Positions 24,021 to 43,353 of a stretch of 64,000 nt of DNA are shown here, piece after piece. The translations under genes were made by a program, and so were the position numbers. This DNA is from Arthrobacter sp. MA-N2. GTDB taxonomy: Bacteria > Actinomycetota > Actinomycetes > Actinomycetales > Micrococcaceae. A model generated the notes under the pieces. The model had not been told where the DNA came from, searched no databases, and worked only from the letters and a program-made list of their open reading frames with translations. Where the stretch lies: positions 3,088,034 to 3,152,033 of the forward strand of contig NZ_KI912155.1 of assembly GCF_000517125.1 (NCBI RefSeq). The letters run 5' to 3'. Within the stretch, counting starts at the first letter, position 1. Each line of letters opens with the position of its first letter.

Positions 24021-24121
24021 TTCCTTACTGAACCTGCCGCGTCTTAAGCGGCGGGGGCCTCTCCCCGGGATTTGATGACGGTGTCTAGTCGCATCAAATG
24101 TCGCCCAGGAAGAGGCCCTGT

Positions 24122-27083: not shown

Positions 27084-27857
27084 TTAGATCAGCCATTCGA
27101 TGTCGCGGCGGGAGAGTCTTCGGAGTGTGTTTTCGATTCGCTGGGCGGCCCGGCGTCGGTGGCTTTCGCCGGTGGGGATGAGAACACGCGCCATTTCGTT
27201 GGCAATCCGGTCGCGTCTCTGTTCTGCCGGGTAGGCCGGGTTCTGAATCCGGTCTTTGAAGGCGGGTCGGGTTATGAGTCGGGCGATGTTCACTGTTTCC
27301 GGATAGATCAGCATTTCGTGCTCGTGTCTTCCGGCGCGGGCGGCGCGTTCTTCGAGGGTGGAGAGTGCGATGCCGGCACTTGCGCATTCGCTCGCGGCTT
27401 GCATCGCGGGCGTTCCGATGTGGATTTGGCGGGAGACCAGTGTGGACCTGAATCGGCGTTCTGCGGCAACGAGTTCAGGCAGTTGCCTGATGTCGAGCTG
27501 ATTGCGGCCGATCCATCGCCGGTGCGCGACGCAAACCCAGCCGATGGCCGGAATCCTGCCGATTCGCGGATTTCCGTTGCCGCATCGCAGACACAGGACC
27601 CGCTCGATGACGGGGTGGCCGCCGATCGACAGCCGCTGGTCGAAAACCCGATCGTGGAGTCGGCCGAGTTGTCTCCATGCTTGAAGGCGTTCTGGGTGCC
27701 GTCGGGCCCGGGATTTGGGCATGATGCCGGCCTCACGGAGGGCATTCTCGATTTGTTCGACGCTGGTGCCGTTTCGTCGGGCGTGGCGGGTGGCGTAGTT
27801 CTCGATGCCTTCGCCGTGGGTGAGGCGGGTCGAGACCGGGAGAGGCTCAAGGATCAC
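27084..27857 (-). CDS. tniQ: TniQ target-selection protein
   Basis: A short TniQ/TnsD-family protein of about 257 aa. The N-terminal PLPVSTRLTHGEGIENYATR and a zinc finger (CLRCGNGNPRIGRIPAIGW then VCVAHRRW) are typical. The GTG start at 27857 overlaps the tniB stop as GTGA. TniQ recognises the target and recruits TniB. Its small size resembles Tn5053/Tn6022-type TniQ more than the long site-specific TnsD of Tn7. Confidence 0.85.
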   Translation of the reverse strand: MILEPLPVSTRLTHGEGIENYATRHARRNGTSVEQIENALREAGIMPKSRARRHPERLQAWRQLGRLHDRVFDQRLSIGGHPVIERVLCLRCGNGNPRIGRIPAIGWVCVAHRRWIGRNQLDIRQLPELVAAERRFRSTLVSRQIHIGTPAMQAASECASAGIALSTLEERAARAGRHEHEMLIYPETVNIARLITRPAFKDRIQNPAYPAEQRRDRIANEMARVLIPTGESHRRRAAQRIENTLRRLSRRDIEWLI

Positions 27858-28816
27858 TGCGCCATCCTGAGTCCAGGTTTCTTGGACTTTGAGGCACCGG
27901 CGCTGTTGTGTGATCGATGGCGCTCCTGGGCTGCATAGTCGGTGGCTGTTGCTTCGAGCCTGCGCCGGTCGATCTTTTCGATGCCTTCGAGGATCGCGCC
28001 GATGGCTGCGTCCGAAAGAAGGCCGCGAAGGGCGCCAATGCTCCCGCCGGTCCGGTCCCAGAGGTAGAGAGACTCTTCTGCAAGGGATCCTGGGATGTGC
28101 GCAGCGAGCGGTAGGAGGTTTTCGACTCCGAGCACCAGATCGGCCCACGATTCACGGTCTGCTTTCGTCCCGCTGGAGTACGGGGTCATCTCGTGCAGGA
28201 TCATGCGGGCTTTGATCTGGCGGCCCATCTCACCGGCGAAAAGATCGGTTGTCGGAAGATCAATTCCGGCGTAGAGAAAGGTCGCGTCCAAACGGTCCGC
28301 GAACTGCTTGAGCGTGCTTGCGGCTTCGGCTCCGGCCTGCCGGTTCGTTCTGAGGTTGTGCACTTCGTCGACGGTCACTAAAGACGTGGCCATGGTGCGC
28401 AAAACGGCTACGACCTGTTCGGTGAGCGCCGGTGCGGTGGCTCTCGGTAGCACCGGTAGTCCAAGCCACTGTGCGAAGGCCTGCATGAGCATTTTCGGCG
28501 TCGTGGCAGGCGGTACGACTGTGTAGACCACGGGCGCGAACCCCCGGTCGTCCTGGCGTCCGAGTGGTTTGCGCTCAGATCTCTCCTGGCGTTTGCCAAG
28601 AAGCAGAGCCGCCGTCGATTTCCCCATGCCTGCGGCGCCTGAGATGGCAAGGCCCCGCCTGGCGGTCGCCGTGCTGGCCGCGTTGCGTGCTATCGCGATT
28701 CGGGCTTGCCGGGAGAGTGCCTGCGTGTCCATGGTTTCCAGGACCGTGTCTGCCGCGAGCCATGCGAACCGGGCACGGTCATAGGCTGACTTCGCCTCAG
28801 CGGAGAGCCCGCGCAC
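27854..28816 (-). CDS. tniB: TniB/TnsC AAA+ transposition regulator
   Basis: About 320 aa from the GTG at 28816. Walker A is ISGAAGMGKSTAALLLGK, Walker B is SLVTVDEVHNL, and sensor and arginine-finger regions follow (DATFLYAGIDLP). It links the TniQ-marked target to the TniA transposase. Conserved sequence (LTTWRDFVAHSPEEPP, LTRREVRG) continues upstream in frame to the tniA stop without a standard start codon. True initiation may therefore use an ATC/ATT near 28903 or coupling to tniA. Confidence 0.88.
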   Translation of the reverse strand: MRGLSAEAKSAYDRARFAWLAADTVLETMDTQALSRQARIAIARNAASTATARRGLAISGAAGMGKSTAALLLGKRQERSERKPLGRQDDRGFAPVVYTVVPPATTPKMLMQAFAQWLGLPVLPRATAPALTEQVVAVLRTMATSLVTVDEVHNLRTNRQAGAEAASTLKQFADRLDATFLYAGIDLPTTDLFAGEMGRQIKARMILHEMTPYSSGTKADRESWADLVLGVENLLPLAAHIPGSLAEESLYLWDRTGGSIGALRGLLSDAAIGAILEGIEKIDRRRLEATATDYAAQERHRSHNSAGASKSKKPGLRMAQ

Positions 28817-28903
28817 CTCTCGCCGCGTCAGGCTTGGAGGCTCTTCGGGGGAGTGCGCGACAAAATCGCGCCATGTGGTCAGGCTGTCCGGAATGGCGAT
28901 GTC

Positions 28904-30931
28904 TCAGTCCTCCAGAAGATCGATGCGCTGGCCATGGCGGCGCCGGGGAAACTCGATGATGACTGGGTCCGCCGCCGGGATCGGCGTAGGTTCCGTAGCA
29001 GCGGGTTCGGTGATCGGGTCCGGCGCGGCTGCCGGTTCCGGGACGGCCGACGGTGTTGCGTGTGTGCGTTGTGCAGCCTGACGCTCGGCGCGTCCGGTGG
29101 GAGCGGTCAGGATCCGATTGATCTCGGCAAGAAGATCCCCGCCGGGCACCGTCCCTCCTCGCCGGTCGATGGCCTTCTTCGCAGCCGCAAGGACGTCTCG
29201 GGAAAAGGGTCCCACAAGGTGCGTGGACAGGGTCCACTTCGCCTCGATCCACTGACCTTTCTCATGGTCACGGACGTAGATCGACTGAAGCCTATACGGG
29301 TCATACCGAACTTCCCAGCGTCCGTCCGCCGGGGAAGGGAGTCCGGAAGGGACTCCCCGGTATGGGTGAAAGCCCGGATTGTCGTAGTGGAGACCATGGA
29401 AATTGATCCCGTACGGCTGGATGCGCCGCCATTCCATTGGCAGGAGCGCGAGGTAGTCATCGCGGCTCAGGGCCACGGGGACCTGCAGTGCAACACTGGA
29501 CAGGGCAGCGAACGCCTCGTTGGGCGTGAGGTCCTTCTTCGGCATGGCCGGGTGGCGAAGGCCCCGGTGGGGACGGTTCTGCCAGACCGCTACAAGCCAC
29601 CAGTCCAGAAGGTTCTGCACTTCCGCGAGGGTGAAACTGGCCTCGGCGGCTGGGGCCTTGCCCCGCCGGACCACGTTCGGGCCGGTGTAGCCGGCCAGGT
29701 ACTGGGTGAATCCTGTGTTGACGCCGGCAAAGAACCGTTCGACGTGTGGTTTGTCCGTGGGCGTCCGAGGGGCGGCTTTCGTGATGCTGATCTGCAGACG
29801 CTCACAAGCTGCCGTGAAAGTCGAGCCGACAAAGACCTTGCCGCGGTCAACCGTGATGGATTCGGGCACGATGACCGGCTTGGCAGCAATCGCGGCGCGC
29901 ACTTCCTCATCACCCGGAAGCATCCCGGGCGGGAGCACGGAGCGCGTATAGCTCAGCGATGCATCCCATCCCGGCTGCATCGGCAGGGGAGTCATGGCAC
30001 GGGCAAGCAGCACGGCCGGGTCCACTGCCTTCGTTGCCACCGGCCGCAGGATGGCGGCCAATGGAGTACGCGTGGCGATGTCCAGTGCGACGGTCAGGTC
30101 CACCCGGCCGCTGCTGCCGTCCGGATAAACAACCATGAGGTCCATCGGCGTCGAGTCGATCTCCACAAGCTCGCCGGGGCGTGACGGGGCTTGGCGTCCC
30201 CAGGGCCTGTCCGGTCGGTTTCCTTGGGTCCGGCGCGTGGTCGCGTTCCCGAACGGGTGCCTTGAACCCTCGATTTTCTTCAAAATGCGGTAGAGCGTTG
30301 CATCCGACGGCACGGCGAGATCTGCCTTGGCTGCCACCGCCCGGACCCGAGCAATGACGCGGGATCGCGTGCCCGTTGAAGCATCCTTCTGCCCGGACAC
30401 CTCGGCCTCGACCAGGGCAAGAACTCTGGGATCGGTTCGCCCGGCCAAGCGCACCTCGCGGGTGGCCCTGCCGTCCGCGAGGCCCCCGATGCCATGCGCA
30501 CGGTAATCGGCGATATGACGGAACATTGTCCGCTCAGTCATGGCCATCCCACGGGCAGCGAGCTCCGTCAACTTGGCCTCGATCCGGACCTGCAAGGGGT
30601 TGGCCAGGTCGTATTCGGGCCTCGGGTTCGTGCCGGGCGGTGACCCTGGAGGAATCCCATGGAGCACTTCATGCACGTGCCGGTGCAGGGACATGACCCA
30701 GTCACGGGCGCCGGGGGAGAGCCTCTCCAACGCAGCCGCATTGTCCAGCGAGGGGAGGGCCGGGGGATCATCCGGCAAGTACGAATCATCGATCAACAGA
30801 TCGGCCACCCGAACCCGTCGGATGCGATTGGTAGCAAGATTCTTCAAGGCCAGCTCGGGCCCGTCCTGGGCTACAACCTGCCAGGATCCTCCGTCGAACT
30901 GGATGAAATCGAAAAGGCGGACGGACTTCAC
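28904..30931 (-). CDS. tniA: TniA/TnsB DDE transposase
   Basis: This 675-aa transposase has an N-terminal winged-helix/HTH region. Its RNase-H core has Asp in ELVEIDSTPMDLM, Asp in ESITVDRGKVF and Glu in DKPHVERFFAGVN, followed by a Mu-C-type beta barrel and a Pro/Ala/Glu-rich tail ending RQRIDLLED-like. It binds the terminal repeats and joins the 3' ends. The GTG start at 30931 overlaps the tnsA stop (GTGA). The longer in-frame reading to 31204 is antisense-like and unrelated. Confidence 0.9.
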   Translation of the reverse strand: MKSVRLFDFIQFDGGSWQVVAQDGPELALKNLATNRIRRVRVADLLIDDSYLPDDPPALPSLDNAAALERLSPGARDWVMSLHRHVHEVLHGIPPGSPPGTNPRPEYDLANPLQVRIEAKLTELAARGMAMTERTMFRHIADYRAHGIGGLADGRATREVRLAGRTDPRVLALVEAEVSGQKDASTGTRSRVIARVRAVAAKADLAVPSDATLYRILKKIEGSRHPFGNATTRRTQGNRPDRPWGRQAPSRPGELVEIDSTPMDLMVVYPDGSSGRVDLTVALDIATRTPLAAILRPVATKAVDPAVLLARAMTPLPMQPGWDASLSYTRSVLPPGMLPGDEEVRAAIAAKPVIVPESITVDRGKVFVGSTFTAACERLQISITKAAPRTPTDKPHVERFFAGVNTGFTQYLAGYTGPNVVRRGKAPAAEASFTLAEVQNLLDWWLVAVWQNRPHRGLRHPAMPKKDLTPNEAFAALSSVALQVPVALSRDDYLALLPMEWRRIQPYGINFHGLHYDNPGFHPYRGVPSGLPSPADGRWEVRYDPYRLQSIYVRDHEKGQWIEAKWTLSTHLVGPFSRDVLAAAKKAIDRRGGTVPGGDLLAEINRILTAPTGRAERQAAQRTHATPSAVPEPAAAPDPITEPAATEPTPIPAADPVIIEFPRRRHGQRIDLLED

Positions 30932-31728
30932 GACGCAGCCGCCAGTCTCGGCATCGGCGACTTTTCCTGGGCCGGGGCGATCCAAGTCTCCATCGACAAT
31001 GGCTCGTCCAGGCCGACTTGGAGGACCCCGATGAAGGCCAAATGCAGCAGATGGGCCTGAACGGTGGAAGGTTCGAGCCGCAGCATTCGCGAAGCGCGCC
31101 GCACACCAGCGGACACGGAGACACCCGAACCGACTGCATCCATGATCGCGGGCACGATCGTGCTGCCCGGGGCATATCTGTGAAGACGGTATCCCGAGAG
31201 CCACCGAAGGTTCGAAGCCGCCGGCTCGGCAACCCCGGAGAACACCTCATAGTCCCATCCGGCCTCCTCGCACAACGCCCGGGTCAAGGAAAACTGACGG
31301 CGGCCGGCCTCCAGATGGTCCGGATGCCGCACATCCACAACGCGTCCACCGCCATCGCTCAGCCGCACAAAGAAATCAGGCACATGACCACGGGCACCCT
31401 CAGTCCCTCTAGGCCACAGCACGGCAAACGGCTGGGACGCAATGCCGACAATGTCCTCGTCGTAATCGGCAAGCATCAGGAAATCCCTCTCCAGCAGACT
31501 CTCAAAACCCACATGCGATCCGGTTGTACTGGACCACCATAAACCCTCGTAATTCCGCTTACCAGGCCAGGAAAAGAACGAACGAACAGGCAGTGCAGAC
31601 TCCAGACGCAGCGATGCCCAAGCCGCCAACACCGGCTCATCCAGCATGCGCTCATCCAACCGAGCGAGAATCCGAACCGAGTCAGTCGCATTCGCTGGCA
31701 GGGAGCTCAAAGCCTCACATTCAGCCAC
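30928..31728 (-). CDS. tnsA: TnsA-like endonuclease subunit
   Basis: This 266-aa protein has the TnsA core GFESLLERDFLMLADYDE, IVGIASQPFAVLW, GHVPDFFVRLSDGGGRVVDV, which is the type II restriction-like active site (Glu, Asp, then a beta-strand pair). The last catalytic position reads VDVR rather than the more usual V-K, a conservative change. A C-terminal helix-turn-helix part (ASRMLRLEPSTVQAHLLHL) follows. TnsA cuts the 5' ends, so with TniA the element should move by cut-and-paste. The GTG start follows the right-end repeats closely. Confidence 0.85.
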   Translation of the reverse strand: MAECEALSSLPANATDSVRILARLDERMLDEPVLAAWASLRLESALPVRSFFSWPGKRNYEGLWWSSTTGSHVGFESLLERDFLMLADYDEDIVGIASQPFAVLWPRGTEGARGHVPDFFVRLSDGGGRVVDVRHPDHLEAGRRQFSLTRALCEEAGWDYEVFSGVAEPAASNLRWLSGYRLHRYAPGSTIVPAIMDAVGSGVSVSAGVRRASRMLRLEPSTVQAHLLHLAFIGVLQVGLDEPLSMETWIAPAQEKSPMPRLAAAS

Positions 31729-31764: not shown

Positions 31765-31812
31765 AACTGACACGTTGAATGCGAAAACTGACATCTGGAA
31801 TGAGAACGGACA
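31765..31812 (-). repeat. Tn7-like right end: terminal repeat and subterminal transposase sites
   Basis: AACTGACACGTTGAATGCGA (31765-31784) and AACTGACATCTGGAATGAGA (31786-31805) are direct repeats running into the terminal GAGAACGGACA. They share the consensus of the left-end sites and sit directly upstream of tnsA, so transposase binding could also repress the operon. Confidence 0.8.
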
Positions 31813-32141
31813 ACGAGTTATCTCATCTAGTTCTACTCGTCCCACTCAAGCGCCGATAATCTACATTATGTCAAGTAGAAGTGATCCAATTGCAGATTTT
31901 GCAGATTAGGACCCGGTGATACGTACTCCCCGGTTTCGGCCACCTGGACGTCGAAGTCCGCGCCGTTACAGGGATCCGGGGCCGTCCGGCGGCGCGCCGG
32001 GCAACAGCCCGGGCGTGTAGAGGTCACCGGGTTCGAGGTACCGTGCAGCCGGGTAATTCCGCTGATTTCCGGGGTTTCCTTGACAGTGATTCGCATTTTA
32101 TGCATTCTAAGAGCATTATTTGCAGACGCAGCGGAGGCGTG
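31813..32141. other. Intergenic region between transposon end and recombinase cassette 1
   Basis: No gene is supported. The first 100 bases are AT-richer than their surroundings and contain a tandem TTGCAGATT TTGCAGATT at about 31889-31906. The last 70 bases carry the cassette promoter. Confidence 0.5.
32080..32120 (+). promoter_or_regulatory. Promoter and possible operator of recombinase cassette 1
   Basis: A consensus TTGACA (32080-32085) is followed about 17 bases later by CATTCTA as a candidate -10. Three spaced GCATT motifs (near 32092, 32101 and 32112) fall across it and could bind the cassette's own XRE protein. Cassette 2 has a related block, TTGATTCAAATTATG with ATGATTCTGG, at the same distance before its start codon. 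Confidence 0.4.
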
Positions 32142-33248
32142 ATGGACCCCCTGGAGGGCCGGCTGATCAGGCTTCCGCTGCGTCAGGGAGCACTCTCCGC
32201 GGACGCGGTGTTCGAGGACATGCTCACGGGCTGGAAGCGGCAGCAGCTGGCACGGAACTTCACGGCCGGCACGATCCGTGGACGGGAGAGCCTGGTCCGC
32301 CGGTTCGTGGATCACACCGGGCATTTTCCGTGGGACTGGACCGTCGGTGATGCCGATGAGTTCTTCGCCCATGAGCGCTCGATCCTGAATCTGGCGTTCG
32401 CCACCATCCGGGCCTATCAGACGCATCTGAAGGTGTTCTGCGACTTTTTGACCGATCCGGTCTATGAATGGGACCGGGTCTGCCTCCAGGGGTTCGGCCG
32501 CTCCCCCGCCCAGATCATCACCGAATTCAACCGGGCCCGGCACGCCCAGAACAACGAACAGGCACCCACCAAACGGCCCTTCACCCGGGCCGAGCTGCAA
32601 GGCTTCTTCGACCTGGCCGACCTCGAAGTCGAACGGGTCCTGGCCTCCGGGCGCAAGGGCGCCGTCGCCGCCTACCGGGACGCCACCGTGTTCAAGACCG
32701 CCTACGCCTGGGGGCTGCGGGCCAACGAGGTCACGCACCTGCAGACCGTGGACTTTTCCCGGAACCGCCGGGCCCCGCAGTTCGGCGAGTTCGGGGTCCT
32801 GCAGGTCAGATACGGCAAGGCACAGCGCGGCTCGCCGCCCAAGAGACGCTCCGTGCTGACGGTCTTTGACTGGTCCCCCGCCGTCCTGGACAGCTGGATC
32901 CGGAACGGACTGCCCTGGCTGGCCCCGGCCGTGTCAGAAATCTTCCCCACTGCCAACGGACTGCCGGTGCCCAAGTCCAACCTGCACCGCCGCTTCCGCG
33001 ACTACATCGACGAACTTGGCTATCCGCCGGGCCTGGACATCCATTCGCTGCGCCGGTCCTACGTCACCCACCTCTTCGAGCACTTCGGCTTCGACCACAC
33101 CTTCGTCCAGCGGCAGGTCGGCCACGAACACGCCTCGACGACCTCCCTCTACACATCGGTCTCCAGCGACTACCAGACCAGCGAGCTCAACCGCGTGCTC
33201 GAGGACATGATCGAGAAGGCCGTCAGGCCGAAGGAGGAACGAGAATGA
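32142..33248 (+). CDS. Cassette 1 tyrosine recombinase (intact)
   Basis: A 368-aa tyrosine recombinase. The N-terminal SAM-like domain covers about residues 25-130. The catalytic domain has Arg in YAWGLRANEVTHLQ, His-x-x-Arg in LDIHSLRRSYVTHLF, His in QVGHEHASTTSLYTSV and the Tyr nucleophile in the same block, so all key residues are present. GGAGG precedes ATG 32142. The stop overlaps the XRE gene (ATGA), and the third gene overlaps in turn, so the three are translationally coupled. It is 368 codons long, exactly matching the reconstructed cassette 2 gene. Confidence 0.9.
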   Translation: MDPLEGRLIRLPLRQGALSADAVFEDMLTGWKRQQLARNFTAGTIRGRESLVRRFVDHTGHFPWDWTVGDADEFFAHERSILNLAFATIRAYQTHLKVFCDFLTDPVYEWDRVCLQGFGRSPAQIITEFNRARHAQNNEQAPTKRPFTRAELQGFFDLADLEVERVLASGRKGAVAAYRDATVFKTAYAWGLRANEVTHLQTVDFSRNRRAPQFGEFGVLQVRYGKAQRGSPPKRRSVLTVFDWSPAVLDSWIRNGLPWLAPAVSEIFPTANGLPVPKSNLHRRFRDYIDELGYPPGLDIHSLRRSYVTHLFEHFGFDHTFVQRQVGHEHASTTSLYTSVSSDYQTSELNRVLEDMIEKAVRPKEERE

Positions 33249-33586
33249 AACGGGACATCGAATACCGGTGGCGGGCCCGGGAACTCATGGCACGGAACGG
33301 CATGCGCAACACCCGCGAACTCGTCGAACCGCTGCGGGAACGCGGCATCACCCTCTCCGAGTCACAGATCTACCGCATGGTCAGCCAGAACCCCGAACGG
33401 ATCTCCTTCCAGCTCCTGGCCGCCCTCTGCGACATCTTCGGCGTCGAAGCGAACGAACTCTTCACCTTCACCGCCGCCGATGCCAGGTCCAAACGCCAAA
33501 AGCATGCCGCCGCCTCCGGGGAGAACGTCGTCCGGTTCGCTGACGCCTACAAACCGGTCAGGGCCAGGATCCTTGACGACGACTAA
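33245..33586 (+). CDS. Cassette 1 small XRE-type DNA-binding protein
   Basis: The 113-aa protein has a Cro/CI-like helix-turn-helix (ELMARNGMRNTRELVEPLRE, then LSESQIYRMVSQNPERISF and LLAALCDIFGVEANELFTF). A variable basic tail ends VRARILDDD. It overlaps both neighbours and is conserved in position and sequence in cassette 2. It may repress the cassette or act as a recombination directionality/architectural factor (inference). Confidence 0.85.
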   Translation: MKRDIEYRWRARELMARNGMRNTRELVEPLRERGITLSESQIYRMVSQNPERISFQLLAALCDIFGVEANELFTFTAADARSKRQKHAAASGENVVRFADAYKPVRARILDDD

Positions 33587-35060
33587 GCCCGGCACCCGCG
33601 GCCGGCCCCGGTCCGAGGGCGGATACCGGTGCACCCGATGCGGGCGCATGGCCGCGAAAATCCGCGTGACCTGGCCCGACGGGGCCATCTGCGGGATCTG
33701 CTTCACCACAGCACTGCGCACCCGCGGATCCTGCCCCTGCTGCGGTGAAGAAAGGTTGCTCCCCGGCAGGACCACCGACGGCACCGACATCTGCCGGGAC
33801 TGCGCGGGCATCACCACCAACATGACCTGCGAGGACTGCGGCAGCGAAACCGAACGATTCCGCGCCGGCCGCTGCATCCGCTGCGTCCTCCGTACCGACC
33901 TGGAGGGGCTGCTCCACCCCCACACTCCCCCGGACCTGAGCCTCAAACGCCTCATCGGAGTACTCGCCGCCGCGGGCAGGCCCGAGAGCGTCTACACCTG
34001 GATGCGCGGGGCCAACACCAAGGACCTCCTCACCGGGCTCGGCACCCGCACCATCGCGCTCACCCATGAGTCCTTTGACGCTCTTCCTGCGTCACGATCA
34101 GTGGAATACCTTCGCGAGCTGCTCGTCCATCACGGCATGCTCCCGGACCGGGACCGCCAACTCGCCGCCTTCGAACAATGGCTGGCGGTCCGCATCCATG
34201 ACCTCGCCAAAACACCTCACATCCAGGCTCCCATCGAACGGTTCGCCCGCTGGCACCACCTCAAACGCCTCCGCCAAATGGCCAGCCCCGGAAAGTCGCT
34301 GAACACGGCCGTCCGCTCCGCCAAACAGGAAATCACCGAAACCGGAAAATTCCTCGCCTGGCTTCACGCGGAGCACGGACTCACCATCCACGGCCTCAGG
34401 CAGGCACACCTGAACCAATACCTGAGCGAAGGACCCTCGACCCGGTACGCCATCCGCACCTTCATCGTCTGGCTCATCAAGAACAAGGAGATCGCCAGGC
34501 TCGAAATACCGCACCGCTACGCCGCCACTAAACCGCTGATCACCCAGCAACAGCGCATAGAACTCATCCGCCAGTGCATCGAGTCCAACGAAGCACCCCT
34601 GACATTCCGCGTCGCTGCCCTAATCCTGCTGCTCTTCGGCCAGCCCATTGGCAAGATCGCCGCATTGAAATGCGCGGACCTGCAGGCCCTGCCCGAGGGG
34701 CTGCACCTGGGCCTGGGGAACATCCCCGTTTTGGTTCCTGCCCAGATCGCCCCGATGTTCTGGGAACACCTGCACCACCGGCCCAACCAGCAGACCGGCA
34801 ACGGCGGGAGCCAGTGGCTCTTCCCCGGCACCCTGCCGGGCCAGCACATCCACGCCGACGCGATGATGGGCCAACTCCGCGCACTGGGCGTCGACCTCGG
34901 CGGCGCAAGGAACACCGCCCTGCGCAGCCTCGTCGAGGAACTGCCGCCAACCCTGGTCGCAAACGCACTCGGCTACAGCTACCAGGTCATCCACAAACAC
35001 GCCGCCGACGCCGGCACCCCAATGGCCGGCTACGCAGGGAAAGGCGCCCTGCCCCGCTGA
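33573..35060 (+). CDS. Cassette 1 zinc-ribbon protein with degenerate tyrosine-recombinase fold
   Basis: A 495-aa protein from TTG 33573, which overlaps the XRE stop. The first 120 residues hold at least three CxxC pairs: CTRCGR, CGICF, CPCCGEE, CRDC, CEDCGSE and CIRCVLR. The rest follows a recombinase layout: a core-binding SAM-like part (AKQEITETGKFLAWLHAEHG), RVAALILLLFGQPIGKIAALK, LFPGT, then GARNTALRSLVEELPPTLVA and ALGYSYQVIHKHA. The catalytic Arg, HxxR, and GH...Y are not conserved, so strand cleavage is unlikely. It probably works as a structural partner of the active recombinase. Confidence 0.75.
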   Translation: MTTTKPGTRGRPRSEGGYRCTRCGRMAAKIRVTWPDGAICGICFTTALRTRGSCPCCGEERLLPGRTTDGTDICRDCAGITTNMTCEDCGSETERFRAGRCIRCVLRTDLEGLLHPHTPPDLSLKRLIGVLAAAGRPESVYTWMRGANTKDLLTGLGTRTIALTHESFDALPASRSVEYLRELLVHHGMLPDRDRQLAAFEQWLAVRIHDLAKTPHIQAPIERFARWHHLKRLRQMASPGKSLNTAVRSAKQEITETGKFLAWLHAEHGLTIHGLRQAHLNQYLSEGPSTRYAIRTFIVWLIKNKEIARLEIPHRYAATKPLITQQQRIELIRQCIESNEAPLTFRVAALILLLFGQPIGKIAALKCADLQALPEGLHLGLGNIPVLVPAQIAPMFWEHLHHRPNQQTGNGGSQWLFPGTLPGQHIHADAMMGQLRALGVDLGGARNTALRSLVEELPPTLVANALGYSYQVIHKHAADAGTPMAGYAGKGALPR

Positions 35061-35408
35061 AGCCGATCAGAACGCGGCCCCCGAACCAACCGCCGGAACC
35101 GGAATGGCCGGAATAGGACTCCGAGCGATAAGTGCAGTTCCCGCTTGTACTCTGCGTATCTCATCGGATGAATCAATTCGCCCGAATCCCCTGGATCCGC
35201 CGGGACGGGCTCACTCACCCCGGGATTTCGCGGATTCTTGCACCCCTGCAACCCTGACGGGCAGCTCCCCGGACGATCCAGACGGCCGCGTGTGGTTGTC
35301 TGTGACGGCGTGAGACGCGCCTCTGACCTGCGGTTTTGTCGTGATGATGCGTTTGATGAATCATTGATTCAAATTATGAACATGATTCTGGCGTGATTTG
35401 GAGGCGAA
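35061..35408. other. Spacer between recombinase cassettes 1 and 2
   Basis: No gene is supported. The last 80 bases are AT-rich (TTGATTCAAATTATG at about 35362-35376) and contain the presumed cassette 2 promoter; GGAGG at 35399-35403 is its ribosome site. Confidence 0.5.
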
Positions 35409-36375
35409 ATGGCGGTCGATGGGTCCGGGCGCGTGCTGCAACTGAGTGCTGTTCGGCTGCTGCATCCCGAGGAACAGACGCTCGAGGACATGCTTACGGG
35501 CTGGCGCAACCAGCAGCTCTCCAGGAACCTTCAGTTCGACACCATTGATAAGGGCATCGGATGTGTCCGAAGGTTCGTGAACCATGTGAACGAGTTCCCG
35601 TGGAACTGGTCACCGGTCCATGTCGAGGAGTATTTCGGTGACCTGCGCTCGATCCATCAACTGAAGCACTCCACGATCCGCGGTTACCAGTCCGCCCTAC
35701 GCCGGTTCACGTCCTACGTATCCAATCCCGACTATGGCTGGGACCAGGTCTGTGAGGAGCGCTTTGGCACGCACCCGTCCCAGGTCTTCTTTGACTGGAA
35801 CACCGCTGCGCACACTCAAGAGTACGAAGGGCGTCCTTCGAAGCGGCCGTTCACCAAGGCTGAACTGCAGATGCTGTTCGACCATGCGGATGACCAGGTC
35901 GAACTCATCGCGGCCTCAGGCAAGAAAGGCTGGAAAGCAGCCTACCGCGACGCGGTCATGCTGAAAGTCACCTACTCGTACGGGCTCAGGTTCAACGAAC
36001 TCCGGCACCTGCAGACCATCGATTTCGCGACCAACCCGCAGGCGCGAAGGTTCGGAAAAACAGGCGTCTGCAAGGTCCGCTTCGGCAAGTCACGCAAGGG
36101 CTCCCCTCACAAACCCCGCAGCGTCCTGACGGTCTTCGACTGGACGGCCGGGGTCATCGAGGACTGGCTCGCCAACGGGCGGGGAACGCTTGAAACACTG
36201 GACCTGTTCCCCAGCGAACGCGGCGGTCTGATCTGCGAATCCACCCTGCTGCGCCGGCTCCGGCGTTACCTGGACGAGCTGGGACTGCCGCTGGATGGCC
36301 TGGACCTGCACTCACTGCGACGCTCCTACGCAACACACCTCCTGGAGGGCGGATGGGATCCTAGATTCGTGCAAT
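35409..36375 (+). pseudogene. Cassette 2 tyrosine recombinase, 5' part (split by insertion)
   Basis: Aligned throughout with the cassette 1 recombinase: EDMLTGWRNQQLSRNL, YSYGLRFNELRHLQTIDF with the catalytic Arg, and LDLHSLRRSYATHLLEGGWD with HxxR. At DPRFVQ the frame enters a Tn554-like element and stops at 36536, giving a 375-aa chimera without the final GH...Y box. The missing 46 codons lie at 40371-40510. Joining 35409-36375 to 40371-40510 gives 1,107 bp, 368 codons, identical in length to the intact copy. Excision would restore the gene. Confidence 0.92.
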
Positions 36376-36495
36376 TTATCTGGGGCCGGAACCGGGGTGT
36401 CTTTGACGTGCAGCACGAGGCCCGTAACCGCACATTTCCGCGTGATGGAGGTGCTTATCTGAAGCTGTCCATCACACGGGATCGCGGGAGGGTTA

Positions 36496-37602
36496 ATGCA
36501 GGTTCAACGAGTTTTGGTGTCCGGTTCGCCGCTTGAGTCGTGGACTGTGCTTGATGATCATGGTGTCGTCGAGCCGGTGGAGCGGTTCCTGGCTTACCTG
36601 ACCGACGTCGAGCGGTCGCCGAACACGCTCAAGGCGTATGCGCATGATCTCAAGGACTGGTTCGTCTTTCTCAGGTACCGCGATCTTGATTGGCGTCAGG
36701 TGAGGCTGGAGAACGTGGGCGAGTTCGTGGCCTGGCTGCGGCTTCCGCCTGCCGGGCGCGCCGCTGACGTGACGTTATTGCCGTCGGCTTCCCATTATTG
36801 TGGGCCGGGCGCGGTGAACCGCAAGCTCGCGGCGGTCAGCGGCCTCTACGTGTTCCACTCCCGTCATGGGGTCCCGCTGGGCGACCTTGTCACCGAGTTC
36901 GAAACTGTCCGGCATCGAAGAACCGGGTGGAGACCGTTCCTTGCCCACCTTGCCGGGGACAGGCCGCAGCGGCGCCGGATCGTGAAACTGCGTGAGCCCA
37001 AGAGGTTGCCCACGGTACTGCCTGCGGCGAAGGCCCAGGCAGTGCTGGATGCGTGCACGCGGCTGCGGGACCGGTTCCTGTTCGTCCTGCTGTGGGAGTC
37101 GGGAATCCGCATTGGCGAAGCGCTCGGGCTGCGGCACGAGGACATTGCAGTCGCCGAGGGCGAGCTGACGATCCGCCGACGGGTGAACGCCAACCGGGCA
37201 CGGGCGAAGTCCATTTCGCCGCGCACGATACCGATTGGCGCGGATGTTGTGCGGCTCTACGGCGATTACCTCCATGAGGAATACGGCGATCTCGACAGCG
37301 ACTATGTGTTCGTGAATCTGTGGGCCGGCACCCACGGCCGGCCAATGAGCTACGCGGGAGTCTATGACCTGGTGCAACGCTTGCGGCGAAATACAGGGGT
37401 GGATTTTGACCCGCACTGGTTCCGCCACACCTATGCCACCCGATTGCTACGGGCCGGAACGCCCATCGAGGTGATCAGCAGCCTGCTTGGCCACGCATCG
37501 GTAGCGACCACCATCGACGTCTACGGCCACCTCAGTGTCGAGGACGCCCGCCGGGCCCTTGAGAAGGCAGGGCTGCTGACCGGAAAAGAGGTTAGCTGGT
37601 GA
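36496..37602 (+). CDS. tnpA: TnpA-type tyrosine recombinase
   Basis: A 368-aa recombinase with the Tn554 TnpA layout. The N-terminal DNA-binding helices are in VERFLAYLTDVERSPNTLKA. The catalytic Arg is in LLWESGIRIGEALGLR, HxxR in PHWFRHTYATRLLRAG, and LLGHASVATTIDVYGHL supplies the second His and the Tyr. GGGAGGG precedes the ATG. The stop overlaps the GTG of tnpB. All catalytic residues are present, so it should be active. Confidence 0.9.
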   Translation: MQVQRVLVSGSPLESWTVLDDHGVVEPVERFLAYLTDVERSPNTLKAYAHDLKDWFVFLRYRDLDWRQVRLENVGEFVAWLRLPPAGRAADVTLLPSASHYCGPGAVNRKLAAVSGLYVFHSRHGVPLGDLVTEFETVRHRRTGWRPFLAHLAGDRPQRRRIVKLREPKRLPTVLPAAKAQAVLDACTRLRDRFLFVLLWESGIRIGEALGLRHEDIAVAEGELTIRRRVNANRARAKSISPRTIPIGADVVRLYGDYLHEEYGDLDSDYVFVNLWAGTHGRPMSYAGVYDLVQRLRRNTGVDFDPHWFRHTYATRLLRAGTPIEVISSLLGHASVATTIDVYGHLSVEDARRALEKAGLLTGKEVSW

Positions 37603-39842
37603 GCTCCCCCGCACTGAACAACCAACACGCCGGTCTTGGACTGCTTGCCAAGCTGATGGCAACGGTCCGGCCCGAGTTCAGACCGAGAATCGTAATCCCG
37701 GCCCCGGGCTCCCTCGTCTTCAACACCGAGCCCTGCCGGATCGACGGGTGTGAAAGACAACGCACGGTGAAGGGGTTCTGCAAGGGCCACTACAAGCGCT
37801 GGCTCGACCAAGGACGCCCGGAACTGGAGTCATTCCTTGCCAACCCCGGCCCGTTGCCCTCAGGCGCTGGCCCCTTGGCGGCGTGCACCGTCACCTGGTG
37901 CCGCTTCGGTTCGGCCAGACGCGGCCTCTGCGTCCGCCATCACGGGTTCTTCGCACGCTCCGGCGAGACCGACATGACCAGATGGCTCACTACCCTCTCC
38001 CCCGAGCCGGCCACCGAACGGCCCGAATGCCGGCTCGCGTTCTGTGACCTCTGGGCACAAGGCAACTCGCCGTTGTGTCTGAACCACAAATCCCGCTGGC
38101 ACGCCATCGGCGCACCGGACATCGGCGAGTTCGTCACCCGGTGCGAAAGCGTCGGCCTGGACCGCTTCGATTTCCGATGCCTGGACGATCGGCCCCAGCT
38201 ACGGCTGGAGCTCCAGCACGCCCTGCAATGCCGCCATGACGAACGCCGGGCCAGTACCCATTCGTCCGCCGTGACGCCCGTGATCCGGCTCGTCACCGAC
38301 AGCGGCGTCACCTCGCTACTGGACTGGGATCTTGACCGGTGGGCAACGTTCTACGGCGCCGGCCGCGCAGGCCGCAGCCACCGCCACAACGGGCAACTCG
38401 CGTTCCTGCGCTTTGCCTACACCCGGCTCGAAGACCTCGCTGCCGGCACCGGCTGGGAGTCCGAGTTTGCCCGCGACGCCTGGGCCCTGCACCGGCTCGG
38501 CCACACCGACACCCGCGGCACCCTCCGCTTCGACAAGATCCCCCAACCGTGGCTACGTGCCTTGGCAAAACGCTTCATCCGATGGCGGCTGACCAGCGGT
38601 AGGGAAATCATCCAGGCCCGCGTCGACATCCTCGCCCTGAACCGATTCGCCGCGTTCCTGGCACACACGATCCCAGACTCCGACGGCCCGGACTGCATCG
38701 ACCGCGGCATCCTGGAACGCTTCCTCGCCGAGCTGGCCCGGGACAAACGGGCAGTGACTTCCCGGGGCCGCGACGTCAGCTCCCTGAACGCCTTCTTCGC
38801 CGCGGTCCGCCGCCACGGCTGGACCGAGGACCTGCCAACGTCGGCGAACTTCTACCCTGAAGACTTCCCACGACCGGCCAAACGACTGCCCAGGGCCCTG
38901 GCCGATCACATCATGGCGCAACTGGATCAAGCCGAAAACCTCGGCAAATGGACCAGACCCGACAGCCGGCTACTCACCCTGATCCTGATGCGCTGCGGAC
39001 TGCGCGTCGGGGACGCCTGCAACCTCGCTACCGACTGCGTGGTCCGTGACGGTGACGGCGCCCCCTATCTGCGGTATATGAACCGAAAGATGAAACGCGA
39101 AGCCCTCGTTCCTCTCGACGAGGAAGTCCACGCCGCCATCCTCGACCAGCAACAACGCGTCCGTGAACGGTTCCCCGACGGCAGCAACTGGCTGTTCCCG
39201 GCCCCGAAGATGAACCCTGACGGAGCAAAACCGCTGACCACACACTCCTACCGCGGACAGCTTGAAGACTGGCTGGAACGCTGCGACATCCAGGACGAAC
39301 ACGGGCAAGAGGCGCGCCTGACCCCACATCAGTGGCGCCATACCTTCGGGACAACACTGATCAACCGCGACGTCCCACAGGAAGTAGTCCGGGTCCTCCT
39401 CGACCACACCTCAGCCGAAATGACCGCCCACTACGCCCGGCTGCACGACACAACCGTGCGCCGCCACTGGGAGAAAGCCCGCAAGGTCAACATCAACGGC
39501 GACACCATCACTATTGACCCGCAAGGACCACTCGCCGAAGCCAGCTGGGCCAAACAACGACTCGGCCGCGCAACACAGAGCCTGCCGAACGGATTCTGCG
39601 GGCTCCCGGTCCAGAAATCCTGCCCGCACGCCAATGCCTGCCTGACGTGTCCCATGTTCGTCACCACCGCCGAGTTCCTCCCCCAGCACCGCGAGCAGCA
39701 CCGCCAGACCGTCCAGATCCTCTCCGCCGCCGAAGCCCGCGGACAGACCCGGCTCATCGAGATGAACCAAGCAGTACTGCACAACCTGGACCGCATCATC
39801 GGCTCCCTCGGTGACACCGCATCAGCCGGAGCGGCCGGATGA
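37599..39842 (+). CDS. tnpB: TnpB-type large tyrosine recombinase with zinc fingers
   Basis: A 747-aa protein. The first 200 residues contain three C-x4-C-x8/9-C-x2-H fingers (CRIDGCERQRTVKGFCKGH; CTVTWCRFGSARRGLCVRH; CRLAFCDLWAQGNSPLCLNH). The recombinase domain has Arg in RCGLRVGDACNLA, HxxR in PHQWRHTFGTTL and DHTSAEMTAHYARL with the Tyr. A C-terminal Cys cluster (GFCGLPVQKSCPHANACLTC) follows. It is larger than Tn554 TnpB (about 630 aa) because of the N-terminal fingers. It overlaps tnpA and tnpC by 4 bp each. Confidence 0.9.
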   Translation: MSSPALNNQHAGLGLLAKLMATVRPEFRPRIVIPAPGSLVFNTEPCRIDGCERQRTVKGFCKGHYKRWLDQGRPELESFLANPGPLPSGAGPLAACTVTWCRFGSARRGLCVRHHGFFARSGETDMTRWLTTLSPEPATERPECRLAFCDLWAQGNSPLCLNHKSRWHAIGAPDIGEFVTRCESVGLDRFDFRCLDDRPQLRLELQHALQCRHDERRASTHSSAVTPVIRLVTDSGVTSLLDWDLDRWATFYGAGRAGRSHRHNGQLAFLRFAYTRLEDLAAGTGWESEFARDAWALHRLGHTDTRGTLRFDKIPQPWLRALAKRFIRWRLTSGREIIQARVDILALNRFAAFLAHTIPDSDGPDCIDRGILERFLAELARDKRAVTSRGRDVSSLNAFFAAVRRHGWTEDLPTSANFYPEDFPRPAKRLPRALADHIMAQLDQAENLGKWTRPDSRLLTLILMRCGLRVGDACNLATDCVVRDGDGAPYLRYMNRKMKREALVPLDEEVHAAILDQQQRVRERFPDGSNWLFPAPKMNPDGAKPLTTHSYRGQLEDWLERCDIQDEHGQEARLTPHQWRHTFGTTLINRDVPQEVVRVLLDHTSAEMTAHYARLHDTTVRRHWEKARKVNINGDTITIDPQGPLAEASWAKQRLGRATQSLPNGFCGLPVQKSCPHANACLTCPMFVTTAEFLPQHREQHRQTVQILSAAEARGQTRLIEMNQAVLHNLDRIIGSLGDTASAGAAG

Positions 39843-40251
39843 ACCGCCCCGACAACAGCCGGCACCTGATCAAAGCTGCACAGCAGCGCGCCGCCCTCAC
39901 CCGGTCCAAAGCTGTCCAAGCGCTCCGAACCCTGCACGCGGACGGCCGTCCGGTCACCTTCGATGCCGTCGCCAAATACGCCCGAGTCTCCCGGTCCTGG
40001 CTTTACACCCAGCCCGACCTCCGAGCCGAAATCGAACACCTCCGTCAAATACAAGCCGCGGCGGAGCCACACCGGAATCCCGGTCACAGCGGGCAAGCGA
40101 GGCTTCTCTACGGCAACGACTCGAAGCCGCCAACGACAGAATCAGACGACTCAACGACGAGAATCAACGCCTGCGGCAGCAACTCGCACACGCCCTCGGA
40201 CAACGCCGCCAAAGTCCATCACCAGACCCCGCGACCATCCCGAATCTATAA
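39839..40251 (+). pseudogene. tnpC: TnpC-type protein (DUF6262-like) with frameshift
   Basis: The N-terminal part (RAALTRSKAVQALRTLHADG, VSRSWLYTQPDLRAEI) has the helix-turn-helix of TnpC. The C-terminal coiled coil (SEASLRQRLEAANDRI, RRLNDENQRLRQQLAHAL) is in another frame and ends at 40251. A one-base loss between about 40045 and 40070 separates them; restoring it gives about 137 aa, close to Tn554 TnpC (125 aa). In Tn554 TnpC sets orientation and efficiency and is not essential, so the element may still move. The unshifted frame reads on across the right boundary into the recombinase tail. Confidence 0.75.
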
Positions 40252-40370
40252 CGGATCCACGAGAATGAAAGGACAGCCAATGCCACCGTCATGCACGTCC
40301 CGGACACACCCACCAACACAAAACCGCAGGCCAGAGGCACATCTACCTGACGGGCTAAAGATAATGCAAT

Positions 40371-40510
40371 ATCAAATGGGCCACGAACACGCCTCTACCA
40401 CCGGGATCTATCAATTCGTCAGCGATGACTTCCGCAACTCCACCCTCCGTGCGGCCCTGGACCGCACCATGGACGAAGTTCTGGGCGTGCAGATCAGGGG
40501 CCAATGGTGA
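40371..40510 (+). pseudogene. Cassette 2 tyrosine recombinase, 3' part
   Basis: Encodes YQMGHEHASTTGIYQFVSDD and FRNSTLRAALDRTMDEVLGV, ending RGQW-stop. This supplies the second catalytic His and the Tyr nucleophile missing from 35409-36375. The stop overlaps the ATG of the next gene (ATGGTGA), as in cassette 1. The coding sequence shows no decay, so the insertion is recent or the element can excise. Confidence 0.92.
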
Positions 40511-40842
40511 GACGCGAAGTCGAATACAAATGGCGGCTTTCCGAGCTCATGGCAGCACGGGGACTACACAACACGACCGACCTCATCCCCCTGCTGGCCG
40601 AGCGCGGCATCTCCTTGTCCCGGCCGCAGGTCTACCGGCTCGTCAACCAGAAGCCCGAACGCGTCGCGCTGCAACTCATCGCCGCGATCTGTGACATCTT
40701 CTCCTGCGGCCCCGAAGACCTCATCACGGTGACAGCCGCCGATGCCCGGACCCGGAAGACCGGCACCAGCGCTCCCAATGTCGTTGACCTGAACCGCACC
40801 GTCCGCCCGCGGCGGGCCCGCATCATCGACGATGGGCACTGA
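40504..40842 (+). CDS. Cassette 2 small XRE-type DNA-binding protein
   Basis: A 112-aa homologue of the protein at 33245-33586. The shared blocks are EYKWRLSELMAARGLHNTTD, ISLSRPQVYRLVNQKPERVA and LIAAICDIFSCGPEDLITV. The C-terminal tail again ends in an RARIIDD-like motif. Downstream translation overlaps by 11 bp. With the upstream recombinase split, its expression may now depend on read-through or a promoter inside the Tn554-like element. Confidence 0.85.
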   Translation: MVRREVEYKWRLSELMAARGLHNTTDLIPLLAERGISLSRPQVYRLVNQKPERVALQLIAAICDIFSCGPEDLITVTAADARTRKTGTSAPNVVDLNRTVRPRRARIIDDGH

Positions 40843-42349
40843 GGCTCCAGAGGGGCTGACTCCCCGCAACACCAGCCGCGGCCGGCCGCGCACCACCGGG
40901 ACCGCCACTTGCGTCCGATGCGGCCGAAACGCCGGCCGAACACGCGCCACCTGGCCCGAAGGCAAAATCTGCGGACCTTGCTTCACCACCGCCACCCGCA
41001 CCCACGGGACCTGCCCTGACTGCGGCCAGCACCGGCTGCTCCCGGGCCCGCCCGAGACCATCGGTGGGCCGCGATGCGCACCCTGCGCAGGCATCCCCCA
41101 CGACTTCCACTGCGGCCGCTGCGGTGTTGAGGGCGAGTTCTACCGACTGGGTATCTGTGCCCGCTGCGCTCTCCGGGACGACCTCAACGATTTACTGCTC
41201 ACAGACCCTGCCGATTCAGGAATGGCGGGCAGAATCGTCGAGGTCCTCTGCAAGGCAGACCGGCCCGAGAGCATCATCACCTGGAAGCGCTCCCCCAAAG
41301 TCCAAGCCCTCCTGTCCTCACTTTCAAACGGGACAACACCTTTGACCCACGAAGGACTCAACGCCCAGGCCAAGTCAGCGGAACGAGAAACCAACCACCT
41401 GCGGGCACTGTTCGTCCACCACGGACTCCTCCCCTACCAAGACCCGCACCTGGCCCGGTTCGAGTCCTGGATCGAAGACAAGCTCCGCCCGTTGCCCGAA
41501 CAGGTCGCAAGACCTGTCGAGCACTTTGCCACATGGCACCACCTACGGCGCATCCGGTCCACGACAACACCGGAAACAAGCGCCCGCGGCCCGGTGCACT
41601 CGGCCAAACAAGAGATCACCGAAACCGTCAAATTCCTGGACTGGCTCTGGCAAACCCACCAAAGAACCGCAGCCACCTGCACCCAGCAAGACATCGAAAC
41701 CTGGCTCGCCACCGGACCCACGACGAGGAAGGCCATCCGCACCTTCATCGTCTTCATCAACAACACCGGAACAAACACCCGCGTGGAAATGGGCCATTAC
41801 ACCGCCAAAAACCGCCCGGCAATCACCCAGGACCAACGCCTGGCCTGGCTGCGGGAACTGCTCACCGGCACCAGCGAATCGCTGCCCTACAGAGTCGCCG
41901 GGATCCTGCTGCTTCTCTACGCCCAACCGCTCGTGCGGGTAGCCAAACTCCGCGTCGAGGCCGTCGAGGCCAACGAAGGCAGCGCGAACATGAAGATCGC
42001 CTTCGGCACGCATCCGGTCCCCGTGCCCCAGCCCGTCGCGGAACTACTTCAAGAACACCTGCGAAACCGGCCGAACCTCAGAACCGGATCGGACACCCGA
42101 AGCCCCTGGCTCTTCCCCGGAACCCGAGCCGGACAGCCACTTCACCCAAACACCATCATGGACAGACTCCGCAACCTCGGCATCGACCTGCGCGGCGCAC
42201 GAAACACCGCCCTCGACGAACACCTCACCCTTTCCCCGCCACCACTGGTCGCGGACGCACTCGGCTACAGCCACCAAGTCGCATTCCTTCACGCCGACGC
42301 GGCAGGCGACGCATGGTCCCGCTACGTCAACATGAGGACCGCACCCTGA
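40832..42349 (+). CDS. Cassette 2 zinc-ribbon protein with degenerate tyrosine-recombinase fold
   Basis: A 505-aa homologue of 33573-35060. Zinc-ribbon pairs are CVRCGR, CGPCF, CPDCGQH, CAPCAG, CGRCGV and CARCALR. The recombinase-like half contains AKQEITETVKFLDWLWQTHQ, RVAGILLLLYAQPLVRVAKL, WLFPGTRAGQ, GARNTALDEHL and ADALGYSHQVAFLHADAAG. The HxxR and GH...Y boxes are absent, as in the paralogue. The two copies differ at many positions but keep the same gaps in catalytic residues, so loss of catalysis is old and shared. Confidence 0.75.
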   Translation: MGTEAPEGLTPRNTSRGRPRTTGTATCVRCGRNAGRTRATWPEGKICGPCFTTATRTHGTCPDCGQHRLLPGPPETIGGPRCAPCAGIPHDFHCGRCGVEGEFYRLGICARCALRDDLNDLLLTDPADSGMAGRIVEVLCKADRPESIITWKRSPKVQALLSSLSNGTTPLTHEGLNAQAKSAERETNHLRALFVHHGLLPYQDPHLARFESWIEDKLRPLPEQVARPVEHFATWHHLRRIRSTTTPETSARGPVHSAKQEITETVKFLDWLWQTHQRTAATCTQQDIETWLATGPTTRKAIRTFIVFINNTGTNTRVEMGHYTAKNRPAITQDQRLAWLRELLTGTSESLPYRVAGILLLLYAQPLVRVAKLRVEAVEANEGSANMKIAFGTHPVPVPQPVAELLQEHLRNRPNLRTGSDTRSPWLFPGTRAGQPLHPNTIMDRLRNLGIDLRGARNTALDEHLTLSPPPLVADALGYSHQVAFLHADAAGDAWSRYVNMRTAP

Positions 42350-42473
42350 AGGAAGCCTTCGTCCACAAAACGAGGTTCGCCGGCCCATTGCCTGGACCCG
42401 GTTCGCGGCGGCACGCGCCTCGTCGCCACTTTCCCTTCCGCGCCCCCATTCCAGCAAGGCCTACACTGACCCC

Positions 42474-42869
42474 ATGCGGGACACTGACGGTGGGATCTTT
42501 GACGCGGCACTGAGGCGTGAGTTCACGGGCGGCGCCTACTGCAACTACAAAGTCAAAGCAGGCCCGCCATTGATTCGCCTCGTCGTCACGCCGCAGCAAG
42601 TTGAGTTCCGCGGCCGTGGACTACTACGCCTCTTCCGCCGCGGCCCGTGGATGGTGCCACGCGAACAGGTCAAAGCGGTTTTCGCCAAGCAACGAAAGAA
42701 CCTGCTCCCGCCCAGAGTCTGGAATATCGAGATCGTCACAACGGATCCGTCAGTTTGGTGGACCTTCTGGTCACCGCAACGCCCCGAACCCATTCTGCTC
42801 TCGATGGAAGAATGCGGCTATCCCGTCGATTGGACCCCGCACAACTGGGCAGGAGCCCCCGTCGAGTGA
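42474..42869 (+). CDS. Hypothetical 131-aa protein, probable leaderless transcript
   Basis: The soluble protein MRDTDGGIFDAALRREF contains a beta-rich core (LIRLVVTPQQVEFRGRGLL, WNIEIVTTDPSVWWTFWS) and could be a small PH-like domain. A TACACT -10 hexamer lies eight bases before the ATG (42461-42466) and no ribosome site is present, as expected for leaderless actinobacterial mRNA. Its coding pattern is normal. It is the first non-mobile gene to the right of cassette 2. Confidence 0.65.
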   Translation: MRDTDGGIFDAALRREFTGGAYCNYKVKAGPPLIRLVVTPQQVEFRGRGLLRLFRRGPWMVPREQVKAVFAKQRKNLLPPRVWNIEIVTTDPSVWWTFWSPQRPEPILLSMEECGYPVDWTPHNWAGAPVE

Positions 42870-43353
42870 GAGCCAGCGGGTGTCGCCTGCCGGCACTCAG
42901 CGGAAGAGCTTCCGCCGAGAGCGCGTCACCTTGAAATTGACGGAAAACTGGCGACGGCTGAACAAGAGAATACGCCCGGATTCAATCCGCAGGGATGCCA
43001 CTAGAACGGATCCGATGGCAGAATCTGCAGCTTGAGACCTAGTGAAACGCCCTCCCGCGCCTTTCGGGTGCTTGGATTCTGAGTTCCTTTGCCACTGCGG
43101 GCAAATGCCCGGCTTCTAGTCTGCAGTGGCGTGCACGTGTGCACGCCACTGAATCCATGGTGGAAGCGGTTTGAGCACGGGACCGGGCTGAAGTTACTCC
43201 TCATCCAACTTGTGGGCCACATCCTATAGGGGAAACGGAGAATTACGATGCTTCCCTCTCCCCCGTCGCTGGCGACAGAGCCGCACGTTCGACGGCGTCG
43301 GCCGCCATCGCGTGGCCGATCGCCTCGGATGGGTCCCCGTCGCGCTCGAACCA
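42870..43353. other. Intergenic region with a long palindrome
   Basis: No gene is supported. The stretch contains the 28-bp palindrome at 43124-43151. Confidence 0.5.
43124..43151. repeat. 28-bp near-perfect palindrome
   Basis: CAGTGGCGTGCAC and its exact complement GTGCACGCCACTG flank a two-base centre. With no loop and no T-tract it is unlikely to be a terminator. It could be a dimeric-protein operator, a cruciform, or the relic of an attachment or terminal site at the island's right border. Confidence 0.7.

Follow-up and report, generated by a model that had tools for sequence, protein, structure and literature searches.

The stretch of DNA analyzed here, hereafter the window, comprises 64,000 nucleotides of Arthrobacter sp. 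MA-N2 (positions 3,088,034 to 3,152,033 of the forward strand of contig NZ_KI912155.1, which is 3.72 Mb long); coordinates are window positions unless a contig or locus is named. The window holds two neighbouring copies of a three-gene cassette, the trio, which is composed of: T, a tyrosine recombinase with all catalytic residues; X, a small XRE/HTH_26 protein; and D, a protein with three zinc ribbons and a catalytically dead recombinase fold. The copies lie beside the predicted chromosomal dif, the site used by cells to separate replicated chromosomes, in the order XerC-side remnant, dif, element 1, element 2 and element-1-type left-end remnant. The individual features, including the relevant open reading frames (ORFs), are:

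31790..31848 (no strand assigned): remnant of a XerC-side element end, by its resemblance by eye to the XerC-side element ends of loci L072, L153 and L154
31849..31876 (+): predicted chromosomal dif, AGCGCCGATAATCTACATTATGTCAAGT; element 1 starts one base past its XerD-arm edge
31878..35146 (+): element 1, trio intact; the left edge abuts dif and the right edge is deduced from the left end of element 2
32142..33248 (+): T1, tyrosine recombinase of 368 aa (PF00589)
33245..33586 (+): X1, XRE/HTH_26 protein of 113 aa
33573..35060 (+): D1, 495 aa, three zinc ribbons and a dead recombinase fold
35147..43003 (+): element 2, broken by a Tn554-like element; left end GTACTCTGCG and right end GGGATGCCACTA, both resembling the ends of mobile copies in other genomes
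35409..36375 (+): 5' part of the broken recombinase gene T2, the DNA being 87.5% identical to that of an intact T as far as 36374; the open frame continues into the insert, to 36536
36376..40364 (+): Tn554-like insert with TGCAAT at both borders, the edges being uncertain by this 6-bp repeat; its ORFs encode a 368-aa recombinase (36496-37602), a 747-aa recombinase (37599-39842) and a small product (39811-40251)
about 40365..40510 (+): 3' part (tail) of T2, with 86% DNA identity to an intact T gene and its downstream sequence from 40365
40504..40842 (+): X2, XRE/HTH_26 protein of 112 aa
40832..42349 (+): D2, 505 aa, dead zinc-ribbon recombinase fold
42474..42869 (+): 131-aa ORF without a Pfam match at E 0.01, possibly cargo of element 2
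43004..43060 (+): past element 2, remnant of a left end of the element-1 type, by its resemblance by eye to 31878-31930 and to the dif-right flank of locus L126

The association of the three genes extends well beyond the window. X and T were found upstream of D and on the same strand for 57 of the 59 distinct full-length D ORFs that have at least 1.3 kb of upstream sequence, some of these loci having also served to build the profiles of T, X and D; the two exceptions to the T-X-D order are the second window copy, on a short locus, and the decayed locus L038. The co-occurrence that had been expected from an inspection of the letters alone (the sequence-only reading) was thus recovered, and its statement that the arrangement is neither RIT, which has three recombinases (RitA, RitB and RitC), nor Tn554 is right for the trio with its one active T, one dead D and one HTH protein.

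In T the residues R193, K226, H301, R304, H328 and Y337 are invariant (22-row alignment) and the best PDB sequence match is XerD (E 2.8e-24). In D, 12 Cys are invariant within a 25-row alignment (A2), and in a 46-row alignment, a few rows of which are broken, there is no conserved Arg at the position of the first catalytic Arg of T; HxxR and GH have each lost their His, and no Tyr occurs at the expected spacing. D had been described as having lost Arg, HxxR and GH...Y altogether, which holds for all but the Arg of HxxR: that residue is kept in most of the proteins (R446, nearly invariant in A2), so the motif is half lost. D1 and D2 are ~45% identical. D is under purifying selection, as had been proposed: the ratio of non-synonymous to synonymous substitution rates (dN/dS) is 0.13-0.30 for D (5 pairs), next to 0.06-0.07 for T (3 pairs) and 0.08 for X (1 pair).

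The recombinase fold that the sequence-only reading had foreseen for D was indeed predicted by AlphaFold2 from 7 sequences, the best of five models having a predicted local distance difference test score (pLDDT) of 72.2. In this model residues about 214-489 resemble tyrosine recombinases, with matches to XerA (Foldseek E 6.9e-5, template modelling (TM) score 0.26/0.43; VIA Z 13.1, root-mean-square deviation (rmsd) 3.1, 150 aligned), XerH (Z 12.9, rmsd 8.2, 250 aligned) and the Tn1549 integrase, and it points to a core-binding plus catalytic-domain tyrosine recombinase fold. The phage regulators MrpR, YopR and SroF, which we take to be inactive recombinases, are also among the structural matches (Z 7.9-9.3). 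At the sequence level the best PDB match of the D profile is XerD (E 8e-4), the remaining matches up to E 1 being nearly all zinc-binding ribosomal or RING proteins.

The three genes move as one unit, a mobile element of 3.3-4.7 kb in the copies that were compared. Within the genome to which the window belongs, a segment of 3,323 bp is 100% identical at C1:2098095-2101417 (chromosome) and C3:273235-276557 (a 353-kb replicon); a second genome contains copies in two places of its chromosome and on another contig that are 99.7-99.9% identical over ~3.7 kb, and in a third the copies are 99.8-99.9% identical over ~4.0 kb. Other multi-copy sets are less alike over their main pieces: 98-99% in genome G022, where the copies have no dif-like site, and 92-96% in genome G093. 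The identical pair, together with the intact genes of element 1 and the low dN/dS values, makes it scarcely credible that the window merely contains two degenerate relics beside dif that have no present activity, as might be read from the broken state of element 2 and the remnants found on both sides.

Two kinds of insertion site could be compared in the occupied and the empty state, and at both the comparison shows that no target DNA was removed. The copy at C1:2098095 splits a gene, the joined flanks of which are continuous, save 3 nt, in four of six relative loci (L170, L171, L174 and L175), the other two (L172 and L173) falling short of spanning the junction; the discrepancy of 3 nt is accounted for if the target was ...GTGCT^GTCGA..., as in L170. 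For the plasmid site, the occupied sequence reads TTATGTCAACTA / GTACTC...GCCAGTA / GCGTTGC (slashes mark the junctions) and the empty one TTATGTCAACTAAAGTTGC, in loci L070, L181 and L182. On pA, a conjugative plasmid of Paenarthrobacter ureafaciens AT, the element is present as two direct copies behind a dif-like site, and the 4,712-bp circular record 'plasmid pD' (NZ_CP094493.1) equals one unit of the tandem pair in NZ_CP094490.1, 2 bp short at the junction (loci L166 and L167). This circle is either an excised intermediate or an assembly product of the tandem repeat.

The position at dif rests on several observations. The motif CGATAATNNNNNTTATGT occurs in 108 of the 119 genomes of the order, usually once, with 1 match overall for the reversed control; the 28 bp in the window agree at 24 of 28 positions with the dif proposed for Frankia alni, differing in the first two bases and in two centre bases, and the cumulative GC (guanine-cytosine) skew of the window peaks at 28-30 kb. 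According to Kono et al., no actinobacterial dif had received experimental confirmation (PMC3025954). An exact dif motif precedes 33 of 56 D loci by 0-9 kb (24 XerD-side and 9 XerC-side, with 0.2 expected) and 6 more begin at a contig edge in that range; these 56 loci come from genomes G000-G072 only, with fragments of one D merged and lesser fragments omitted (among them G068 C42:93947, E 7e-35, and G025 C14:81580, E 3e-18), and 2 of the 33 (window copy 2 and G040 C2:99002) occupy the outer position in a stack. Similarly, a dif-like score of ≥ 18/22 within 300 nt was obtained for 40 of 67 testable T rows and for 4 of 1500 random 450-nt windows, where the 67 rows, which include overlapping loci of the same element, remained from 95 after setting aside 23 with too little upstream DNA and 5 with misplaced starts.

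XerD-side elements start right after ...TTATGTNAAGT plus one base. A quick tree built from 61 T proteins parts the XerC-side rows (9) from the XerD-side rows (23) by one change, with 10 rows undecided. Most members of two T clades lie exactly at one of the two outer limits of dif, or of a dif-like site on a plasmid, with dif left intact, one clade at the XerD-arm edge and the other at the XerC-arm edge. Since the dif centres differ between near-identical copies (99.7-99.9%) in two other genomes, dif is supplied by the target. We had also considered that the element carries the dif motif, which the same differing centres led us to reject, and that the crossover takes place in the dif centre, which was rejected on these centres and on the occupied/empty comparison of the plasmid site. 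A single dif-like site is flanked on both sides by trio elements, with transcription away from the site, in L222:4107, L152 and L161. In L217, L218 and L220, elements of the third T clade directly follow a umuD-like gene or interrupt a umuC-like gene, as read from translations.

Insertion at dif could in principle be the work of the host, XerC/XerD integrating the element in the style of IMEX, which are known to land at dif (PMC9765430), and T, X and D acting as accessories. In IMEX, host Xer acts at dif itself, whereas the trios have their own T with a complete active site, the junction lies beyond the 28 bp of dif instead of in the centre, the arms and centre of dif remain those of the target, and the copy at C1:2098095 occupies a half-site within a gene. 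We therefore regard this explanation as very unlikely.

The sequence-only reading had not recognized the cassettes as transposons at dif and called the system undescribed, which was too strong. A literature search over titles and abstract openings, without subscription papers or bioRxiv, gave no description of dif-edge trios, with the proviso that the TnsF homologue list of PMC10293859 could contain relatives. The trio is however not wholly new in kind, and the following comparisons follow the published descriptions as far as the cited texts were available. Tsy of Zoogloea (PMC10293859) has the same order: a recombinase, a small HTH protein and TnsF, a zinc-finger/recombinase protein with N-terminal zinc fingers. 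It uses a circular intermediate and an attachment site ≤ 40 bp upstream of the insertion point, and its end2, ...AATCCCAGTC (...CCCAGTC), resembles the trio right ends ...CCAGT[AT]. Tsy differs in that the catalytic domain of TnsF is active and essential (ZooTsy) whereas D is dead, in that its target is comM instead of the dif edge (two trio clades) or umuDC-like surroundings (three third-clade loci), and in a GIY-YIG nuclease that is present in one Tsy branch. The TnsF of Tn6022 (498 aa, PMC10293859) is like D in its N-terminal zinc fingers, its inactivated recombinase domain and its role as target selector; its partner is TniQ, in a Tn7-like transposon with no partner tyrosine recombinase. 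The trio is of the same general kind as Tsy, but we do not place it as a Tsy member, and D is inactivated yet still has a live recombinase as its partner, unlike both ZooTsy TnsF and Tn6022 TnsF.

Inactive partners were reported elsewhere too. In the SE elements (intA-tfp-intB-srap, PMC10214605), the operon that encodes the active recombinases and a small accessory protein also encodes Tfp, whose recombinase fold is dead; these elements have two active recombinases (IntA and IntB) against a single T, imperfect inverted repeats and gammaproteobacterial hosts, and the word zinc does not occur in the available text of that paper. The GInts (ginABCD, PMC5385486) encode an incomplete recombinase, GinC, and a small GinD, but with two complete recombinases, GinA and GinB, and at other targets. 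Tn554, a relative of which interrupts element 2, is also a tyrosine-recombinase transposon that encodes a small third protein; it has two recombinases and TnpC and no dead zinc-ribbon partner (PMC10214605).

We consider it likely that the cassettes are site-specific tyrosine-recombinase transposons that work like Tsy, with D helping in the choice of the target and T cutting. T, being XerD-like with a complete active site, would cut and join via a circular intermediate; D would bind the dif arm and/or the element end and position T, as TnsF does at comM; X would be a small HTH accessory, as in Tsy; and the dif edge would serve as a landing place, harmless to the host, on chromosomes and plasmids alike. 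By this analogy D probably helps to find the landing site. The inactive and selected partner that had been proposed to provide DNA recognition or architecture is supported as such, and its role itself is an extrapolation.

A number of observations weigh against the Tsy-like reading. The role of D is assigned by analogy, and as ZooTsy needs the catalysis of TnsF and D has none, the mechanism must differ in part. The model of D is modest (pLDDT 51-65 for the other four models; pTM, the predicted TM-score, 0.38; Foldseek TM-scores to XerA 0.26-0.43), and a direct comparison of the D and T profiles gave no match, so that the case for D as a relative of recombinases comes from its predicted fold and its match to XerD. 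The copy at C1:2098095 lies at a half-site within a gene, which implies that a full dif is not required, and at the plasmid junction the two adjacent bases are GC in the occupied and AA in the empty state. The circular record could be the assembly product mentioned above. Finally, the cut-off leaves 19 of the 61 T rows with no dif-like site (11 belong to the third clade, and one is window element 2, because it sits behind element 1), and none was found for three other plasmid loci (two Streptomyces, one Rhodococcus), so that dif targeting is a trait of clades and not of the family.

Which of the two proteins reads the target bears on one alternative, in which the part of D is architectural or regulatory (a repressor, or a zinc-ribbon protein that bends DNA or binds ends) and T alone reads the dif arm and cuts, the split between arms being a property of T. 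The preference for the XerC or XerD side tracks the T tree, T is XerD-like and the recombinase-fold phage regulators match the D structure; the tree, however, cannot separate the roles of T and D because the two travel together, and in Tsy and Tn6022 it is the zinc-finger/recombinase protein that binds and selects the target (PMC10293859). We hold this alternative to be a serious possibility, although rather an unlikely one. Another concerns the chemistry: a T2D2 synapse might swap one strand pair only, giving strand-biased circles, with the element copying itself out as was proposed for SE. The single active recombinase, the two or three near-identical copies per genome and the tandem copies plus circular record in one strain would fit, as would the SE precedent with its dead Tfp (PMC10214605). 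The SE elements have two active recombinases, though, a T tetramer could perform both exchanges, and the 6-bp footprint of SE and Tn554 was not seen for certain at the junctions, inspected by eye; this copying route is doubtful to us.

The trio elements, with a recombinase of their own, treat dif as an address and not as a substrate, landing just outside the 28 bp and leaving the dimer-resolution site whole. Because two clades use opposite arms of one site, a protein swap could show which subunit is the target reader. D, as a dead partner, also widens the theme of TnsF, Tfp and GinC to Actinobacteria, plus single trios on one plasmid each of Betaproteobacteria and Bacillota.

Relatives of D were retrieved from 67 of 199 related genomes and, by profile, from 33 of 396 genomes of the phylum, the weakest of these matches being doubtful and possibly ordinary recombinases. 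The nearest named matches to the D proteins of the window genome are from Paenarthrobacter, Arthrobacter, Pseudarthrobacter and Nesterenkonia. D is further present in 245 plasmid records, mainly of Streptomyces (110) and Rhodococcus (58), whereas the phage records gave no match to D1 and the viral contigs no stretch fitting the D2 patterns. The two trios outside the phylum are on a Variovorax and a Cytobacillus plasmid; in both D proteins the first Arg, the His of HxxR and the GH are absent by eye, and the Variovorax D matches the A2 profile (hhalign E 5.5e-24). The Cytobacillus trio (L229:4314-7638) consists of a recombinase, an HTH_26 protein and a recombinase-like protein with one zinc-ribbon-like motif, and is preceded by a JAB-domain (radC-like) gene. 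One may go further and imagine a cross-phylum transposon family of one live recombinase and a dead zinc-ribbon recombinase as replaceable target reader, its clades retargeted to the XerD edge, the XerC edge, umuDC or radC surroundings, and its half-dead synapse exchanging a single strand pair, so that copy-out leaves no empty site; as a whole we offer this as a tentative and improbable extension.

Within the window, element 1, which adjoins dif, is intact, and element 2, farther out, is broken; such an order would follow from new arrivals inserting at dif and displacing their predecessors outward. Elements at the dif edge can stack in tandem. The same order of overlapping genes, noted twice by the sequence-only reading, stands for T/X/D at 32142-35060 and for X/D at 40504-42349, but the second cassette has no intact recombinase of its own. 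An intact relative of T aligns to that of element 2 up to 36374 and resumes from 40365; the landmarks flanking the insert are 3,996 bp apart, and between them are two PF00589 recombinases and a small third ORF, so that this stretch reads as a Tn554-like element. The 368-aa recombinase at 36496-37602, which had been counted as a cassette gene, is the TnpA of this insert. The span 32142-42349 that had been delimited does contain the genes; the unit is larger, with dif and the element ends outside (31849-43003).

Related Tn554-like inserts were seen in three more T genes (L155, and L161 on both strands), ~90-93% identical over long translated stretches, where the break falls ≤ ~10 nt ahead of the Q[MV]GH codons, whether T is of the XerD side or of the XerC side. 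Including the window, four trio T genes are split by such elements at the corresponding position, and this transposon may be specialised in the recombinase gene of another transposon. Genes for a TnsA-like protein (just below the Pfam cut-off), a Mu-C/rve transposase and TniB occupy 27854-31728 (-) and end ~120 bp left of dif; likewise, TnsA-like and Mu-C genes lie at L182:1-1314 (pJ349-116), ~155 bp from a plasmid dif-like site and beside a XerC-side element end. A Tn7-like transposon may thus home on dif too, or on the ends of trio elements. A further transposase gene (rve domain) is found near the terminus at 24098-25651 (+), and an M-box magnesium riboswitch at 8474-8645 (-).

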